DNA of 64,000 nucleotides from Xanthomonas sp. NCPPB 1128. GTDB lineage: Bacteria; Pseudomonadota; Gammaproteobacteria; Xanthomonadales; Xanthomonadaceae. The translations under genes were made by a program, and so were the position numbers. Numbering within the stretch: position 1 is the stretch's first letter; each line of letters starts with the position of its first letter. Below are positions 48,361 through 54,846 of the stretch, piece after piece. The stretch spans positions 1-64,000 of the forward strand of contig NZ_LFME01000015.1 of NCBI RefSeq assembly GCF_001043115.1. Reading direction: 5' to 3'. The notes beneath the pieces are model-generated. The model was not told where the DNA came from. It worked only from the letters and a program-made list of their open reading frames with translations, and searched no databases.

Positions 48361-49380
48361 TCAGCTGGACACGACCACCCGCCACTGCCGCGCTTCCACC
48401 TGCTCCCAGGCGATCTCCACCGGCAGGAACTTCTCGATCAGGCGCGCATTGCTGGACAAGTGCGCGCTGACCGTGTCGGTAGTGAAGGCGCCGCCGCCGG
48501 CCAGCGCCATCGGCAGCAGCAACTGGTCGGCGAGGTGCTCGCCGACGCAGGCGCCACTGTCCAGATAGCGGTGCACCTGCGCCGCCAGGCGTTCGCCGAC
48601 CTGCTCGGCGGAGACGCCGCGCTCGCCGTGACCGGCGAAGACCTCCACGTGCGCCGCATGCCGCACCCGCACCAGCGCGGTGTTGCCCGGCCCCATCGCC
48701 GGACGCACGCTGTGCACGTGGCGCGGGTTGGCATCCACGCCGAGACGCTCGGCCAGCACCGCCAGTTCGCGCCGGCCGATCTTGCCGGACAGGCCCGAGA
48801 CCAGCACCTGCGCGTCGAGCGCCTGCAACGCGCCACGCGCGTCGAAGGACACCTGCTGCAGCTGCGCACAGGGCACGATACCGGCACGCAGCGCGCCGCC
48901 GCCGGCCGGATAGAAGCCATGCCGGTCCAATGTCAGCGTGGCGCTCACCCCCAGGCGCTGCAGCGCCGGCAGGTACGTCTCGGCGAGGAAGTCGGTGCAG
49001 GGCGCCAGCGGGTTGTGGGTGCCGCCTTCCAGGGTCAGGCGCGACGGCGCGGCGGCACGCCACAGCGCCGGCAGCACCGTCTGCAGCACCAGCGTGGTCG
49101 AGCCGGCGCTGCCGGTGGCGAACCGATAGTCGCCGGGCACGACCGCTCCCGGCTCGAACCGCAGCGTGGTCGCGCCGATCTGCGCCCCGTGCGTGCGCGC
49201 CTGGCCGATCGTGGCCGCGGCGACGACCGCGGTCAGGTGCTGGCGCATCAGGCCCGGACGCGGACGTGCGCCGCGGATGTCGTTGAACGTGAAGCCGGTG
49301 CCGGTGCACAGGCTCAGCGTCAGCGCGGTGCGCAGCAACTGCCCGCCGCCGGCCGCACCATCGAGTTCGATCATGTCCAT
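48361..49380 (-). CDS. rtcA: RNA 3'-terminal phosphate cyclase RtcA
   Basis: RtcA converts RNA 3'-phosphate to 2',3'-cyclic phosphate with ATP, making ends that RtcB can join. The 339-residue protein begins ELDGAAGGGQLLRTALTLS, keeps NDIRGARPRPGL and GFYPAGGG, and has the nucleophile histidine in GEHLADQLLLPMALAGGG. I chose the ATG at 49380, which gives the usual length; two nearby in-frame ATGs (one upstream, one downstream) are possible. It is last in rsr-ncRNA-rtcB-rtcA. Confidence 0.95.
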   Translation of the reverse strand: MDMIELDGAAGGGQLLRTALTLSLCTGTGFTFNDIRGARPRPGLMRQHLTAVVAAATIGQARTHGAQIGATTLRFEPGAVVPGDYRFATGSAGSTTLVLQTVLPALWRAAAPSRLTLEGGTHNPLAPCTDFLAETYLPALQRLGVSATLTLDRHGFYPAGGGALRAGIVPCAQLQQVSFDARGALQALDAQVLVSGLSGKIGRRELAVLAERLGVDANPRHVHSVRPAMGPGNTALVRVRHAAHVEVFAGHGERGVSAEQVGERLAAQVHRYLDSGACVGEHLADQLLLPMALAGGGAFTTDTVSAHLSSNARLIEKFLPVEIAWEQVEARQWRVVVSS

Positions 49381-49477
49381 TGCCAAACAATCCATCGTTG
49401 GAAAACGCCCATGCGGACAAGCCCGCACGGACGATCGGCGCCGGCCGCCAACACTGCATGCCGGCCGGCACCTGTTG

Positions 49478-50698
49478 CTACCCCTTGACGCACACCACCT
49501 GCCGCAGCGTATGCACGATCTCCACCAGGTCGCGCTGGGCGGCCATCACCGCCTCGATCGGCTTGTAGGCCGCCGGCGACTCGTCCACCACGTCCTGGTC
49601 CTTGCGGCACTCCACGTGCGCGGTGGCCTTGGCGTGCTCGTCGACGCTGATGCGGCGACGCGCCTCGGTACGGCTCATCACCCGGCCGGCGCCATGGCTG
49701 CAGCTGTGGAAGCTGTCGGCGTTGCCCAGCCCGCGTACGATGAAGCTCTTGGCGCCCATGCTGCCGGGAATGATGCCCAGCTCGCCCTTGCGCGCGCTCA
49801 CCGCGCCCTTGCGGGTCACGAACACGTCCTTGCCGAAGTGGTGCTCGCGGCTGACGTAGTTGTGGTGGCAGTTCACCGCTTCGGCCTGCGCCTCGAACGG
49901 CTTGGCGATGACCGTGCGGACCGCCTCGACCACGCTGCGCATCATGATCTCGCGGTTGATCCGCGCATAGCGCTGCGCCCAGTCCACCGCGAACACATAG
50001 TCGCCGTAGTACTGGCTGCCCTCCGGCAGGTAGGCCAGGTCCTGGTCCGGCAGGTTGATCATCCAGCGCCGCATTTCCTCCTTGGCCAGCTGGATGAAGT
50101 GGTTGCCGATCGCATTGCCCACGCCGCGCGAGCCGGAGTGCAGCATGAACCAGACCCGCTGCGTCTCGTCCAGGCACATCTCCACGAAGTGGTTGCCGGT
50201 GCCGAGGGTGCCGAGATGCTGCAGGTTGTTGGTCTTGCGCAAGCGCGGGTGGCGCTCGCAGATCAGCGCGAAATCGCTGGCCAGCTGCGCCCAGCCGTCC
50301 ACCGCCGCGCCCGGCGGCGTCTGCCACGCGCCCTTGTCGCGCGCGCCAGGCGTGCGCCCATGCGGGACCGCGCGCTCGATCGCGCTGCGGATCGGCGCCA
50401 GATTGTCCGGCAGGTCGCTGGCGACCAGCGAGGTGCGCGCGGCGATCATCCCGCAGCCGATGTCCACGCCCACCGCGGCCGGCACGATCGCGCCGATGGT
50501 CGGCACCACCGAACCGACGGTCGCGCCCTTACCAAGGTGCACGTCGGGCATCACCGCGATCCAGCGATGGATGAAGGGCAGCTTGGCGATGTTCTGCAGC
50601 TGCTGGCGCGCCTCGTCCTCCAGCGGCACGCCGCGGGTCCACAGTTTGATCGGCGCCGCTCCCGGCTGCGCAATGACATCGTACTGCTCGGTATTCAT
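49478..50698 (-). CDS. rtcB: RNA ligase RtcB
   Basis: RtcB joins RNA 2',3'-cyclic phosphate or 3'-phosphate ends to 5'-hydroxyl ends using GTP and manganese. The 406 residues carry the metal ligands in VGVDIGCGMIA (Cys82), GTGNHFVE and HSGSRGVGNAIG, and the guanylylated histidine in HSCSHGAGR. AAGGA is 8 nt before the ATG at 50698. It lies downstream of the Y-RNA-like array and a T-run, so its expression relative to the ncRNAs may be set by read-through. Confidence 0.96.
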   Translation of the reverse strand: MNTEQYDVIAQPGAAPIKLWTRGVPLEDEARQQLQNIAKLPFIHRWIAVMPDVHLGKGATVGSVVPTIGAIVPAAVGVDIGCGMIAARTSLVASDLPDNLAPIRSAIERAVPHGRTPGARDKGAWQTPPGAAVDGWAQLASDFALICERHPRLRKTNNLQHLGTLGTGNHFVEMCLDETQRVWFMLHSGSRGVGNAIGNHFIQLAKEEMRRWMINLPDQDLAYLPEGSQYYGDYVFAVDWAQRYARINREIMMRSVVEAVRTVIAKPFEAQAEAVNCHHNYVSREHHFGKDVFVTRKGAVSARKGELGIIPGSMGAKSFIVRGLGNADSFHSCSHGAGRVMSRTEARRRISVDEHAKATAHVECRKDQDVVDESPAAYKPIEAVMAAQRDLVEIVHTLRQVVCVKG

Positions 50699-50727
50699 GG
50701 TGTTGTTCCTTGTGCAACGGATCTTCG

Positions 50728-50742
50728 AAAAAAGCGCGGTGA
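50728..50742 (-). terminator. Possible terminator/attenuator before rtcB
   Basis: On the minus strand the closing strand TCACCGC of ncRNA unit 4 is followed by GC and six Ts. With the GCGGTGA strand more than 100 nt upstream it makes a terminator-like end. It would release the ncRNAs and let part of the transcription pass to rtcBA. The stem is not a simple hairpin, so strength is uncertain. Confidence 0.45.
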
Positions 50743-50848
50743 CGAGGGAGGGTGGAACCTTCCGCATGGCGGCACTGCCGCCGTGCGGCCGGGACTCGAA
50801 CCCGACCCGTGAAGGGATACCAAATGGAGTTCCACCTGCATTCACCGC
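50736..50848 (-). ncRNA. Y-RNA-like unit 4, lacks a D arm
   Basis: Outer stem GCGGTGA/TCACCGC, internal loop, then GGTGGAAC/GTTCCACC enclose a T arm TCGGGTTCGAGTCCCGG. A long acceptor-like hairpin follows: CCGCA/TGCGG, a C-A mismatch, then GGCGGC/GCCGCC with AGT loop. Unlike units 1-3 there is no GCTC...GAGC D arm. It ends at a T-run 38 nt before rtcB. It is probably transcribed with rsr-rtcBA; the fold is by eye. Confidence 0.7.
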
Positions 50849-50856
50849 AAAACCAA

Positions 50857-50982
50857 CGCATCGCCTCATGCGGCAAGTCCGTACGCGGAACGATCGCTCT
50901 ACCCCTGAGCTACCGCCATGTGGCGGGCGGGATTCGAACCCGCGACCGATGGAGTTCCGCCTGCATCCGCCAGGCAACGCGC
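50857..50982 (-). ncRNA. Y-RNA-like unit 3 with tRNA-like module (YrlA type)
   Basis: Outer stem CGCGTTGCCT/AGGCGATGCG (10 pairs, two of them G-U), GCGG/CCGC, an internal loop and GCGGAAC/GTTCCGC form the Y module. Inside lies a permuted tRNA mimic: T arm GCGGGTTCGAATCCCGC, acceptor 3' strand CCGCC, loop ACAT, acceptor 5' strand GGCGG, and D arm GCTCAGGGGTAGAGC. The T loop TTCGAAT is canonical for tRNA modification enzymes. The Y stem takes the place of the anticodon arm. Confidence 0.8.
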
Positions 50983-51001
50983 ACAACAGGACCGACGACG
51001 A

Positions 51002-51125
51002 CCACGACAAGGGGGATGGAACATTCCCGCTCTATCCAACTGAGCTACCACCCCATCGAAGGGTGGGCGGGACTCGAACCCGCGACCTGGAGCTTAAGAG
51101 GCTGTAGTTCCATCGGCATTCGTGG
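51002..51125 (-). ncRNA. Y-RNA-like unit 2 with tRNA-like module (YrlA type)
   Basis: Outer stem CCACGA/TCGTGG, an internal loop and the 8-bp helix GATGGAAC/GTTCCATC enclose T arm GCGGGTTCGAGTCCCGC, acceptor CCACCC/GGGTGG with a TTCGATG loop, and D arm GCTCAGTTGGATAGAGC. It lies in copy 2 of a tandem duplication (50974-51220). Expected partner: Rsr, encoded just upstream. Confidence 0.82.
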
Positions 51126-51193
51126 ACGCCGGCGGCGAAACCTGGAGGCGACGACTGCCGCCTCCGTCAACTGAAATCTTGCATCTCCCACAG

Positions 51194-51219
51194 CCCGGCG
51201 GGCCCCATTGCCCGCCGGG
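51194..51219 (-). other. GC-rich hairpin between ncRNA units
   Basis: CCCGGCGGGC and GCCCGCCGGG form a perfect 10-bp stem with AATGGG loop. The same hairpin occurs at 51455-51480. There is no T-run, so it is more likely a processing signal or pause site than a terminator. Confidence 0.7.
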
Positions 51220-51256
51220 TCCAGTGCTTCCATGCAACGCACACAACAGGACCGAC

Positions 51257-51390
51257 GACATCCACGACAAGAGGGATGGAACATTCCTGCTCTACCGACT
51301 GAGCTACCTCCCCATCCTTGGGGTGGGCGGGAATCGAACCCGCGACATGGAGCTTCAAAGGCTGTAGTTCCATCGGCATTCGTGGACGCC
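51257..51390 (-). ncRNA. Y-RNA-like unit 1 with tRNA-like module (YrlA type)
   Basis: Outer stem GGCGTCCACGA/TCGTGGATGTC, internal loop and GATGGAAC/GTTCCATC enclose T arm GCGGGTTCGATTCCCGC, acceptor CCACCCC/GGGGAGG (one A-A mismatch, loop AAGGAT or similar), and D arm GCTCAGTCGGTAGAGC. It is the first unit after rsr, in the order rsr-yrl-rtcB-rtcA known from Salmonella. A CACGAATG stretch in the 5' strand of the stem may be part of the Rsr-binding site. Confidence 0.82.
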
Positions 51391-51454
51391 GGCGGCGAAA
51401 CAGGGAAGCGACGACTGCCGCCTCCGTCAACTCGACATCTTGTGTCTCCCACAG

Positions 51455-51480
51455 CCCGGCGGGCCCCATTGCCCGCCGGG
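51455..51480 (-). other. GC-rich hairpin after rsr
   Basis: Second copy of the CCCGGCGGGC/GCCCGCCGGG hairpin, 24 nt after the rsr stop. It may mark the boundary where the mRNA is cut from the ncRNAs. Confidence 0.7.
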
Positions 51481-51503
51481 TAGTACCTTCCCTTCAACCG
51501 ACC

Positions 51504-53051
51504 TCACACCACGATCGAGGCGATCCGCTCGACCCAACGCTTGGCGCCGGCGCCTTCGGCCGCGAACGTGGCCAGCAGGTCGAACACCGCATCGCTGAAG
51601 CCGCCGACATGCAGGATGTCGTCGCGCTCGACCGTCTGGCTGGTGGCCACCGGCTGCAGGTCGATGCAGACCATGCGCGCCTGCGGACACCGCGCCTTCA
51701 ACTCTGCCCAGGCCTGCATGGTCGCGGTCGCCCCGTTGCGGGTGTCGCGCCAACTCTCGTTGTCCGACACCAGCACCAGCAGGTCGACGGGCACACGCTG
51801 CGCATTCAACTGCAGCAGCGGCGCGCTGACGCTGGTCCCGCCACCGCACAAGGCGGCCAGTTGCTGCGCCTGGGCGATCACGTCCTGGCGCTGCCGCAAC
51901 CGCAGCGACCGCACTTCGGTGTCGAACGGCAACACCGTGGCGCGCGGATTGACCCGCTGCACGCAGGCCGCGATCAGCGCGGCGACATCCACGCAGCGCA
52001 CGCTGCTGCTGGCGCCGCGGCGGAAGCCGGTGACCGGTGCGGCCATCGACCCGGACACATCCACCGCAACCACTACCTCGCCGTCCAACCGCGGGACCTG
52101 CCGCGTCGCGATCTCCATCGCGTCGCGCAGCGCCTGCCCGATCTGCGGCGGCAACCTGCTGGCCGCGGTGCTGGCCACCAGCAACTGGTACGGAAACACC
52201 CGGGCGCGCTGGATCTGCGCCGGATCGCGCAAGCGTGCCGCGACCTGCGCCACCATCGCCTTGTCCTCGAACACCCCATGCCGCGCGAAGGTGTTGAGGT
52301 TCATGCGCAAGGTCTGCCACGACGCGTTCCGGGCCAGCGCCGCCCAATGCGCCGCGGTCAGCGGCAAGGCGGTGTAGTACTGGAACGGCAGCTCCGGCAA
52401 CACCTCCGACGGGGCGCGCTTGAACGCCTCGTACGCCTGCAGCATCGCCGGCAGCGCTTCCTCGCGGTACGGCTTGCCGACGACCCACGCGTACAGCGCC
52501 TCGCGCTCGGCGTCGGCCGGCTTCGGGTGGACCATGCGGATCACGTCGGCCAACGACGGCTGCTGGCCGATCGCCGCCTGCACGATGGTCTGCGCCGAGG
52601 CCTGCTGCAGCCACTGCCGCACCAGGCGCTTGGGCCGCGACCCCAGCGACTTGCGCCCGAGTTGCCCGCTGCGCACGATCTGCACGAAGTTGCGCAGCAA
52701 GCGGCCGTTGTCGATCACCCGCGGGAAGGCCCGTGCGAACAGGTCCGGATCGCGGGTGGTCAGCGTGGCCAACAACAAGGCCGGTATGTCCTTCATGTGC
52801 GCGACCTGACGTGCGTAGATCGCGGTCTGCGCGACGAAGCCCGGATCGACCTGCGCGCACAGCCCGAGCACCTGCTGCAGTTGCAGCTCGGCGCCGGCAT
52901 AGAAGGTGCCGTTCAAGCAGCCGGTGGCCGCGTACAGCGCCAGCGCCGCCTGCGGCGAACGCGCATAGGCGGCGCCGCCCGCGTCGTTGCGCACGGTCGC
53001 CGGCGGCAACAGCGCGCCACGCGAGGACGAGAACAGAGAGAGGTTGGCCAT
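51504..53051 (-). CDS. rsr: Rsr, Ro60 orthologue (TROVE domain and vWA domain)
   Basis: A 515-residue ring-shaped RNA-binding protein. Residues 1-320 form the helical-repeat TROVE ring (GTFYAGAELQLQQVLGLC, FVAQTAIYARQVAHMKDIPA), which binds Y RNAs outside and RNA ends in its hole. From about 325 is a von Willebrand A domain with a complete metal site: AVDVSGSM (Asp331, Ser333, Ser335), GGGTSVSAPL and VSDNESW. In Deinococcus and Salmonella Rsr works with Y RNA and PNPase in RNA decay. AAGGAG lies 6 nt before the start. A sigma-54 promoter lies upstream. Confidence 0.94.
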   Translation of the reverse strand: MANLSLFSSSRGALLPPATVRNDAGGAAYARSPQAALALYAATGCLNGTFYAGAELQLQQVLGLCAQVDPGFVAQTAIYARQVAHMKDIPALLLATLTTRDPDLFARAFPRVIDNGRLLRNFVQIVRSGQLGRKSLGSRPKRLVRQWLQQASAQTIVQAAIGQQPSLADVIRMVHPKPADAEREALYAWVVGKPYREEALPAMLQAYEAFKRAPSEVLPELPFQYYTALPLTAAHWAALARNASWQTLRMNLNTFARHGVFEDKAMVAQVAARLRDPAQIQRARVFPYQLLVASTAASRLPPQIGQALRDAMEIATRQVPRLDGEVVVAVDVSGSMAAPVTGFRRGASSSVRCVDVAALIAACVQRVNPRATVLPFDTEVRSLRLRQRQDVIAQAQQLAALCGGGTSVSAPLLQLNAQRVPVDLLVLVSDNESWRDTRNGATATMQAWAELKARCPQARMVCIDLQPVATSQTVERDDILHVGGFSDAVFDLLATFAAEGAGAKRWVERIASIVV

Positions 53052-53098
53052 GTCAGGCTCCTTGCGGGAACGGCCCGCGTTGGTGATGACCAGGTATC

Positions 53099-53113
53099 GC
53101 AATGGCCGTGCCA
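53099..53113 (-). promoter_or_regulatory. Sigma-54 promoter of the rsr-ncRNA-rtcBA operon
   Basis: On the minus strand TGGCACGGCCATTGC gives the -24 TGGCAC and -12 TTGC with the required five-base spacer. The start of transcription should be near 53087, about 36 nt before the rsr ATG. The divergent rtcR encodes the matching sigma-54 activator. Confidence 0.9.
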
Positions 53114-53124
53114 ACTTTTCCAAA

Positions 53125-53170
53125 AATCGATTAAGTCATTGATCTAAAATAATAAATATTTGATCAACAG
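53125..53170. promoter_or_regulatory. AT-rich putative RtcR upstream activating region
   Basis: An AT-rich island between rsr and rtcR, unlike all surrounding DNA. It has TTGATC at 53139-53144 and palindromic TTGATCAA at 53160-53167, about two turns apart and roughly 50-80 bp upstream of the predicted rsr start site, a usual place for activator sites. Confidence 0.4.
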
Positions 53171-53235
53171 CCAATCGATGCTTGTCCGATACCAGATATT
53201 TCTATACCTTAGGCGACGTTCTTATAAGGATGGAT

Positions 53236-54846
53236 ATGGACAGGCCACAGGTGGTGTTCGGCATGCTCGGCACTCAGCTGGATGCGGGCAGCGGTCCCGG
53301 GCGCTGGGAAAAGTGGCGCCCGACGGTGGCGCTGGGGATGCACGAGGATTTCCTGCTCAGCCGCCTGGAGCTGCTGACCGACCTGCGCCGCTACCAGAAG
53401 CTGGCGCAACTGGTGCGCGAGGACCTGGGCCAGGTCTCGCCGGACACGCAGGTGCGGCTGCACGACACCTACCTGGCCGATCCCTGGGACTTCGAGGGGG
53501 TCTACGCCACCCTGCACGACTTCTTCGCCGGCTATGCGTTCCGCCCGGACGAGGAGGACTACTACCTGCACATCACCACCGGCAGCCACGTCAGCCAGAT
53601 CTGCGGCTTCCTGCTGACCGAGAGCCGGCACTTCCCCGGGCGCCTGCTGCAGACGTCGCCGCCGCGCAAACAGGGCAGCGGCGAGGCCGGCGCCTACTCC
53701 GTGATCGACCTGGACCTGTCGCGCTACGACCGCATCGCACAGCGCTTCCAGCAGCAGCAACTGCAGGACCGCGCGTTGCTGAAGAGCGGCATCGCCACGC
53801 GCAATGCGGCGTTCAACCGCATGATCGAACAGATCGAGACCGTGGCCACGCGTTCCAGGGCGCCGATGCTGCTGATGGGCCCGACCGGCGCCGGCAAGAG
53901 CCAGCTGGCCAAGCGCGTGTTCGAACTGAAGAAACTCAAGCATCAGTTGCCGGGGCGTTTCGTCGAGGTCAATTGCGCCACCCTGCGCGGCGACGGCGCG
54001 ATGAGCGCACTGTTCGGGCACACCAAGGGCGCCTATACCGGCGCGGTCAGCGACCGCCCGGGGCTGCTGCGCTCGGCCCACCAGGGCCTGCTGTTCCTCG
54101 ACGAGATCGGCGAGCTCGGCCTGGACGAGCAGGCCATGCTGCTGCGGGCACTGGAAGAGAAGCGGTTCCTGCCGGTCGGCAGCGACCGCGAGGTGGAGAG
54201 CGAGTTCCAGCTGATCGCCGGTACCAATCGCGACCTGCACCAGCACGTGGCGCAAGGCCGCTTCCGCGAGGACCTGCTGGCGCGCCTGAACCTGTGGACC
54301 TACCACCTGCCCGGCGTGGCCGAACGCCGCGAGGACATCGAGCCGAACCTGGACTTCGAACTGGAGCGCTGGTCGCGCGAGCAGCACCAGCGGGTGACCT
54401 TCAATCGCGAGGCGCGCAGCCGCTACCTCGCCTTCGCCACCGGCGCGGAGGCGCGCTGGCACGGCAACTTCCGCGACCTCAGCGCCTCGGTGATGCGCCT
54501 GGCGACGCTGGCCAATGCCGGGCGCATCCAGCTCGAGTTGGTGGAAGAGGAAATCGAGCGCCTGCGTCGGCAGTGGCGCGACGGCACCCCGCCCTCCCCG
54601 CTGGACGCGCTGCTCGGTGAGGCGGCGGCGGCGCTGGACCGCTTCGACCGCGTGCAACTGGAGGACGTGGTCCGGGTCTGCGCCACCGCCAAGTCGCTGT
54701 CGCAGGCCGGGCGCGAACTGTTCGCGGTCTCGCGCACGCAGCGCGCCAGCACCAACGACGCCGACCGCCTGCGCAAGTACCTGGCGCGGTTCGGCCTGGA
54801 CTGGGAGCAGGTGCGCGAGGGTGGGCGCGCCGCATCGCAGGACTGA
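53236..54846 (+). CDS. rtcR: Sigma-54-dependent regulator RtcR
   Basis: A 536-residue activator of the RNA repair operon. The N-terminal CARF-like domain (about 1-180: VVFGMLGTQLDAG, WEKWRPTVAL, HITTGSHVSQICGFLL) is thought to sense an RNA-derived signal. The AAA+ domain has GPTGAGKSQLAKR, HTKGAYTGAVSDRPG (the sigma-54 contact loop, GAYTGA here) and LLFLDEIGELG. A C-terminal helix-turn-helix completes it. The second of two ATGs is chosen because AAGG is 6 nt before it and abuts the first. Confidence 0.94.
   Translation: MDRPQVVFGMLGTQLDAGSGPGRWEKWRPTVALGMHEDFLLSRLELLTDLRRYQKLAQLVREDLGQVSPDTQVRLHDTYLADPWDFEGVYATLHDFFAGYAFRPDEEDYYLHITTGSHVSQICGFLLTESRHFPGRLLQTSPPRKQGSGEAGAYSVIDLDLSRYDRIAQRFQQQQLQDRALLKSGIATRNAAFNRMIEQIETVATRSRAPMLLMGPTGAGKSQLAKRVFELKKLKHQLPGRFVEVNCATLRGDGAMSALFGHTKGAYTGAVSDRPGLLRSAHQGLLFLDEIGELGLDEQAMLLRALEEKRFLPVGSDREVESEFQLIAGTNRDLHQHVAQGRFREDLLARLNLWTYHLPGVAERREDIEPNLDFELERWSREQHQRVTFNREARSRYLAFATGAEARWHGNFRDLSASVMRLATLANAGRIQLELVEEEIERLRRQWRDGTPPSPLDALLGEAAAALDRFDRVQLEDVVRVCATAKSLSQAGRELFAVSRTQRASTNDADRLRKYLARFGLDWEQVREGGRAASQD

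Follow-up and report, generated by a model that had tools for sequence, protein, structure and literature searches.

What do Ro60 and Y RNAs contribute to a bacterial operon for tRNA repair, and which part of the Y RNA is recognised there? The question is raised by an RNA-repair operon of Xanthomonas sp. NCPPB 1128, located at positions 48361–54846 of the first 64,000 nucleotides (nt) of contig NZ_LFME01000015.1, the stretch that we analysed as a whole and refer to as the window. Between rsr, which encodes the Ro60 orthologue, and the RNA ligase gene rtcB, the minus strand carries an array of four RNA units, numbered here 1 to 4 from rsr towards rtcB. These are four YrlA-type Y RNAs in three structural classes. 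Units 1 (51258–51386) and 2 (50998–51126) are very probably complete, circularly permuted tRNAs, with the Rsr-binding stem inserted into the anticodon stem. Their anticodon loop is thereby indicated as a recognised part, which bears on why Ro60 and Y RNAs occur in tRNA-repair operons.

When units 1 and 2 are aligned to the Rfam model of YrlA (RF02553), 13 nt between the closing helix and the T arm appear as inserted sequence. Placed in tRNA numbering, these nucleotides form an anticodon stem-loop, AGC-CUUUGAA-GCU with the triplet UUG in unit 1 (51351–51363, minus strand; identified from its sequence, a register test and a covariance model of 54 units, both described below) and AGC-CUCUUAA-GCU with the triplet CUU in unit 2 (51091–51103, minus strand; register test, loop comparison and the same model). 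The unit 2 loop, CUCUUAA, is identical to that of tRNA-Lys(CUU) in the same genome; the unit 1 loop differs from that of the genome's tRNA-Gln(UUG). In both units the hairpin is followed by CC and then by a 5-nt variable loop, which reads AGGUC in unit 2. In unit 2, positions 27–28 are the GG that follows the D arm (51026–51027, minus strand); they pair with the CC at positions 42–43 (51089–51090) and form the outer half of the anticodon stem, which is split here. With the strand behind the D arm supplying the outer pairs 27:43 and 28:42, the anticodon stem has all of its 5 bp, and the Rsr-binding stem interrupts its 5′ strand. The chain opens between positions 28 and 29, and a loop bridges the acceptor ends. 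We refer to units of this shape, tRNAs with the break in the anticodon stem and the ends joined at the acceptor, as class A. A sequence-only reading of the window had described a permuted tRNA module; the T, acceptor and D arms that it named are present, but it missed the anticodon arm that completes the tRNA in units 1 and 2.

Units were parsed from the window, from 32 related Xanthomonadaceae loci and from other fetched loci, using a parser blind to the hairpin. This yielded 387 units, 332 of them distinct, and 109 of the distinct units carry the anticodon arm, mostly in Proteobacteria and in some Verrucomicrobia. Within segments of 19–28 nt that run from the closing helix to the T stem, hairpins of at least 3 bp with a 7-nt loop occur in 135 of 220 cases, compared with a mean of 36.1 and a maximum of 51 after shuffling. 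Loops of 3, 4, 5, 6, 8 and 9 nt occur in 65, 50, 57, 41, 40 and 15 cases, compared with 49.0, 46.4, 42.5, 39.1, 33.2 and 30.1 in shuffled segments, so that those of 3 and 5 nt lie mildly above the shuffles. The hairpin keeps a single register: a tail of 7 nt follows it in 109 of 226 units, and any other tail length from 3 to 11 nt in at most nine. A 7-nt tail is what tRNA numbering demands for positions 42–43 and the variable loop 44–48, which reads AGGUC in 55 of 103 units. Positions 29–31 are complementary to 39–41 in 106 of 191 units, with 21 stem types, whereas permuted partners give a mean of 10.8 and a maximum of 21. The outer pairs 27:43 and 28:42 are both Watson–Crick in all 103 class A units counted (permuted mean 53.6, maximum 72), mainly as GG/CC (68 units) and CG/CG (30 units); this count excludes the 6 of 109 class A units that have no parsed D arm.

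To look beyond close relatives, genome contigs (genome_contigs) were scanned with a pattern that leaves 5–33 free bases at the place of the hairpin, which returned at least 117 stretches; the same scan of viral contigs returned 22. The pattern-matched loci without a Y-RNA box number 56 and include many real tRNAs; 51 of them yielded no unit and five did, one of these giving one class A unit. Genomes labelled as other families contain eight Rsr-bearing loci, six with class A. Seven further loci, which hold neither Rsr nor a parsed unit, were set aside as probably chance tRNA matches.

An independent set of 54 gap-free units was assembled from 51 loci outside the family of the window, drawn from named records, genomes labelled as other families, four Rhizobium plasmids and three viral contigs. 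Taking hairpin and T stem together, 94.4% of cells are paired, with 39 double-change cells compared with 9.4 after shuffling, and pairing falls to 36–59% when the partner columns are slid by up to 3. In the hairpin alone, 86.4% of cells are paired and two of the three pairs have changed on both sides. A covariance model of these 54 units detects unit 2 of the window at 67.4 bits (E 1.2e-22) and unit 1 at 64.7 bits (E 1.2e-21). Unit 3 reaches 28.5 bits, with the hairpin deleted in the alignment, and unit 4 reaches 24.2 bits. At an E threshold of 0.001 the model has 22 matches in the whole genome, comprising the four units and 18 others; 11 of the 18 cover model positions 11–47, a span that begins with the anticodon arm and ends with the T arm. 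The native tRNAs that it matches best are tRNA-Asp(GUC), twice, and tRNA-Lys(UUU).

The composition of the loop was examined in the 109 class A units. Of these, 105 have a pyrimidine at position 32, 91 have U at position 33 and 104 have a purine at position 37, while position 34 is uniform, with an entropy of 1.99. The loops comprise 68 different 7-mers and 34 triplets, CUU, GUU, UUG and UUU being the commonest. Conserved positions 33 and 37 together with a free 34 are the pattern expected of an anticodon loop with changing identity. U35 is present in 73 of the 109 loops and in 38 of the 68 unique loops, compared with 10 of the 43 anticodons of this genome (Fisher p 0.0008); p values for loop composition are too optimistic, because related sequences are not independent. 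Some NUN anticodons are known targets of nucleases: PrrC cleaves tRNA-Lys(UUU) (PMC10264068), and AriB cleaves tRNA-Lys(UUU) and tRNA-Asn(GUU) in addition to Thr tRNAs (PMC12409363).

We compared five Xanthomonas genomes over 54 columns that comprise the closing helix, the arm and the T arm, the length-variable acceptor and D part being excluded. The triplets of unit 1 are UUG, CUU, UUG, CCG and CCG, and three of its five variable columns belong to the triplet (p 0.0004). Those of unit 2 are CUU, UUU, UUG, CUU and CUU, with two of three variable columns in the triplet (p 0.006). In the two units together, the triplet accounts for 5 of 8 variable sites. An anticodon that differs between related species suggests a role as a decoy against tRNA-cutting enzymes.

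Within the genus of the window the Y-RNA locus is present in 4 of 20 genomes, and X. sacchari R1 provides a fifth. The 32 related loci all encode Rsr, RtcB and RtcR; RtcA is encoded in 31, and the one that lacks it is a 5-kb contig. All 93 distinct units of these loci sit between Rsr and RtcB, and 29 of the 32 loci hold at least one strict class A unit. By the taxa as labelled, class A occurs in Alpha-, Beta- and Gammaproteobacteria, in six verrucomicrobial loci and in one locus of the Planctomycetales. A query with the Budvicia locus had matches in 4808 of 5426 E. coli genomes, none covering more than 80% of the query, and the 12 matches shown are to rtcB; with no match above 80%, E. coli was dropped as a population sample. 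A search for enteric YrlA in one further family found it in none of 246 genomes, but the control genomes were likewise without a match, so the zero does not speak for absence.

Given these properties, we propose that units 1 and 2 have the structure of decoys for anticodon nucleases and serve as such, co-expressed with RtcB and RtcA; for structure and function taken together, we regard the case as evenly balanced. Its anatomy, covariation, loop conservation and operon context have computational support, while expression, binding of Rsr and of the nuclease, and re-ligation are predicted. In Salmonella, SOS-dependent anticodon nuclease activity produces tRNA halves and accompanies activation of the operon, and 5′ halves that end in a 2′,3′-cyclic phosphate bind RtcR and oligomerise it (PMC7790460); in strain 14028s the trigger needs genes of prophage Gifsy-1 (PMC9879122). 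By the same route, tRNAs cut by an anticodon nuclease would activate RtcR here, and the operon would deliver, alongside the repair enzymes, tRNA decoys that are bound by Rsr and present a target loop to the nuclease. A decoy bound and cut by the nuclease would be kept together by the closing helix, without releasing an authentic 5′ half because of the circular permutation, and RtcB could re-seal it. PMC7790460 reports that YrlA fragments were not detected in Salmonella, and its authors suggest that YrlA might act as a competitive inhibitor of the nuclease; the element through which it might do so would be an anticodon loop carried by the Y RNA. A wider version of the proposal, which we put forward tentatively and with some doubt, is that repair loci of Proteobacteria and Verrucomicrobia make clade-tuned sets of complete, circularly permuted tRNA decoys, whose triplets track the nucleases met and which Rsr holds and RtcB can re-seal. 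If true, this would give bacterial Ro60 and Y RNAs a defence role beside tRNA repair. Each class A Y RNA singles out one candidate tRNA and with it a nuclease to try, and such RNAs may help to find unrecognised anticodon nucleases.

Several observations weigh against these proposals. The 3-bp hairpin is absent from the minimum-energy folds of units 1 and 2, and the structure proposed for unit 2 has −33.2 kcal/mol, compared with −36.4 kcal/mol for the minimum-energy fold. In the 54-unit set the third hairpin pair is only A–U or unpaired, its A being fixed by the scan pattern for most rows. A34, rare in real anticodons, is found in 18 of 68 unique loops and in 1 of this genome's 43 anticodons (p 0.0006), and U33 is found in 56 of the 68 compared with 43 of 43 in this genome (p 0.003). 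Of the 68 class A loops, 10 equal a tRNA loop of the window's genome, which is not significant (controls 6.2–6.7, with 283–402 of 5000 at least as high); the idea that the loops copy native tRNA loops was rejected, the match count not being above chance. The decoy idea predicts changing triplets, but class A is present in 24 of 25 Rhizobium/Shinella plasmid loci (25 of 46 records), all with GUU or GUC. Because the triplet is variable in Xanthomonas and stable in Rhizobium/Shinella, its change is clade-dependent. In one genus of Xanthomonadaceae, CUAUCAC is common to five of nine loci, three carry other loops and the remaining one has a 4-bp form only. The loops of Verrucomicrobia and Planctomycetales are partly off consensus, two verrucomicrobial ones having C37. 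A PrrC-like protein (PF13166) is encoded in two of the four array carriers and in 1 of the 16 non-carriers among the 20 genomes of the genus, and it is not encoded in this genome; this counts neither for nor against the idea that PrrC-type nucleases determine which Xanthomonas carry the array.

One alternative is a generic tRNA-shaped adaptor with a neutral triplet: the full tRNA fold, anticodon arm included, might help to dock the Rsr-bound Y RNA on PNPase or another tRNA-handling protein in RYPER-type degradation or in the quality control of cut tRNAs. YrlA is known to link Rsr with PNPase, and its published description lists D, T and acceptor arms (PMC8394870). The sharing of arrays by arm-less and arm-bearing units also speaks for such an adaptor, as does the lack of enrichment of exact native-loop matches. 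However, a neutral loop leaves the conserved U33 and R37 beside a free 34 unexplained, and also the excess of U35, although shared descent may inflate the latter. We consider the adaptor rather unlikely and rank it second, after the decoy; a bait ranks third. In that third account the loop is meant for cutting, and the cut Y RNA signals nuclease activity to RtcR or is a preferred substrate of RtcB. Activation of RtcR by tRNA 5′ halves with a cyclic phosphate (PMC7790460) and the presence of array, ligase and cyclase in one gene cluster would fit a bait or sensor of this kind. Cutting a permuted molecule, however, yields no 5′ half with acceptor and D arms, and the failure to detect YrlA fragments in Salmonella noted above also argues against it; we find it quite improbable. 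As for a functionless remnant of a tRNA ancestral to the Y RNAs, the prevalence of U35 is what would be expected from few ancestors, but selection is needed for the stem covariation and for U33 and R37 beside a free 34, which makes a vestige barely credible.

The remaining units of the array differ from class A. Unit 3 (50867–50973, minus strand) is of a short class that has T, acceptor and D arms without an anticodon arm, and unit 4 (50733–50848, minus strand) has no detectable D arm and places a CCC-UUCAC-GGG hairpin before the T arm. Hairpins in the same place in relatives include CCC-UUCG-GGG and CCCC-GCAA-GGGG, and the hairpin of unit 4 recalls a class II variable arm. RF02553 scores units 1 to 4 at 65.3, 74.1, 70.3 and 35.1 bits, so that units 2 and 3 pass the gathering score of 69 and units 1 and 4 miss it. 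In comparison with 200 shuffles, three units fold better than all (z −2.9, −2.9 and −3.6, the last being unit 4); unit 3 folds no better than its 200 shuffles (z +0.2). Units 1 and 2 originate from a 260-bp tandem duplication (50970–51481, minus strand), visible as direct repeats of 112, 65 and 48 nt, 91–94% identical at a spacing of 260–261. A self-complementary stretch of 26 nt (CCCGGCGGGC...GCCCGCCGGG) precedes unit 1 (51455–51480) and recurs between units 1 and 2 (51194–51219). Among the 150 scored of 397 candidates, the genome showed no further YrlA match at E 0.001. In the window ARAGORN detects no normal tRNA, and none of the units is a functional tRNA in the sense of a linear molecule with a free acceptor end. 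An RF00005 match at 50919–51054, which might have been a real intron-bearing tRNA, was rejected, as it joins the D arm of unit 2 to the T arm of unit 3. Elsewhere in the survey, three loci have long units in which the T arm is preceded by about 55 nt starting with GGTAGACGCA. This start resembles the 3′ half of a D arm of Leu type, and the long units may mimic class II tRNAs in a permuted form whose opening lies in the D loop rather than in the anticodon stem.

The operon around the array comprises rsr (51504–53051, minus strand; vWA_Ro60 1.4e-16, TROVE 7.5e-8), a gap of 805 nt free of protein genes (50699–51503), rtcB (49478–50698, minus strand; PF01139, 2.7e-127) and rtcA for the RNA 3′-terminal phosphate cyclase (48361–49380, minus strand; PF01137, 5e-71). 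The Pfam search of rtcA covered 48361–49377, its ATG start being 49378–49380. Divergent from the operon lies rtcR (53236–54846, plus strand), encoding a sigma-54 activator (PF06956, 1.7e-76; Sigma54_activat, 7.5e-49), the RtcR domain of which has been described as a divergent CARF domain (PMC7790460). A sigma-54 (−24/−12) promoter precedes rsr at 53099–53113 on the minus strand (TGGCACGGCCATTGC; exact motif TGGCACRNNNNTTGC). The motif has a single match in the window where 0.14 is expected, 12 of 100 shuffles hold one, and it lies upstream of rsr in 29 of the 32 related loci. With rtcB, rtcA, a divergent rtcR and this promoter, the locus is an RtcR-controlled RNA-repair operon. X. sacchari R1 has the same locus, with an array 91.9% identical and the rsr counterpart annotated as 'VWA domain-containing protein'. 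The 508-kb record that holds it (NZ_CP010410.1) is labelled a plasmid, and gltX adjoins the operon there; it may be chromosomal DNA because of this neighbour.

Much of what the sequence-only reading had claimed was borne out by these analyses. Pfam and motif searches recover the promoter, the genes in their order, the gap and the divergent regulator, and the GGAAC/GTTCC closing helix that it gave to four units is present in all four. Its permuted order of T arm, acceptor and D arm in three units holds for units 1 to 3, which thus have the YrlA-type tRNA-like domain that unit 4 lacks, and the check it called for with a YrlA covariance model matches all four units, two of them above the gathering score. 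The locus can be regarded as the Xanthomonas form of the rsr–Y RNA–rtcBA operon under RtcR and sigma-54, as it had supposed, and X. sacchari R1 agrees. Its expansion to four noncoding RNAs stands as to the four YrlA-type RNAs but is not unusual, given that the parser finds 1 to 6 distinct units per locus in the 32 related loci. Their division into three structural classes supports its suggestion that the units may have distinct roles. The array RNAs are putatively expressed and would bind Rsr, and their participation as putative noncoding partners in sensing or repairing cut tRNAs is plausible.

Relatives of Rsr, at 50–53% identity, are also encoded on three viral contigs of 18, 253 and 249 kb. 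Y-like units are likewise present on viral contigs, and one contig holds both a locus with such units and one of the Rsr relatives.

The closest known system is YrlA of Salmonella (RF02553). The array shares with it the Rsr-binding closing stem, the permuted T–acceptor–D module, the location between rsr and rtcB (the units are encoded beside rsr in the window and in all 32 related loci) and control by RtcR and sigma-54. It differs in the anticodon arm, which neither the Rfam consensus nor the available published description (D, T and acceptor arms; PMC8394870) includes, Salmonella being compared by description only, and in number, with four units of three classes here and two RNAs, YrlA and YrlB, in Salmonella (PMC9879122). 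No mention of an anticodon arm on bacterial Y RNAs was found in the literature searched, which did not cover the founding Y RNA papers of 2014 and 2018. The arm-bearing units thus appear to be a new form of YrlA, and they would revise the view of YrlA as a tRNA mimic built from D, T and acceptor arms alone. Units 1 and 2 resemble tRNA in having four arms, a 5-nt variable loop and a Y32-U33-N34-N35-N36-R37 loop; in contrast to tRNA, they are permuted, have no free acceptor end, have an anticodon stem split by the Rsr stem and are ARAGORN-negative, and A34 is frequent in their class. They also recall the phage tRNAs with altered anticodon loops (PMC10264068), which are tRNA-like and whose loop changes have been proposed as answers to anticodon nucleases. 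Those are phage-encoded tRNAs, whereas the RNAs described here belong to RNA-repair loci of bacteria and are non-coding Y RNAs.

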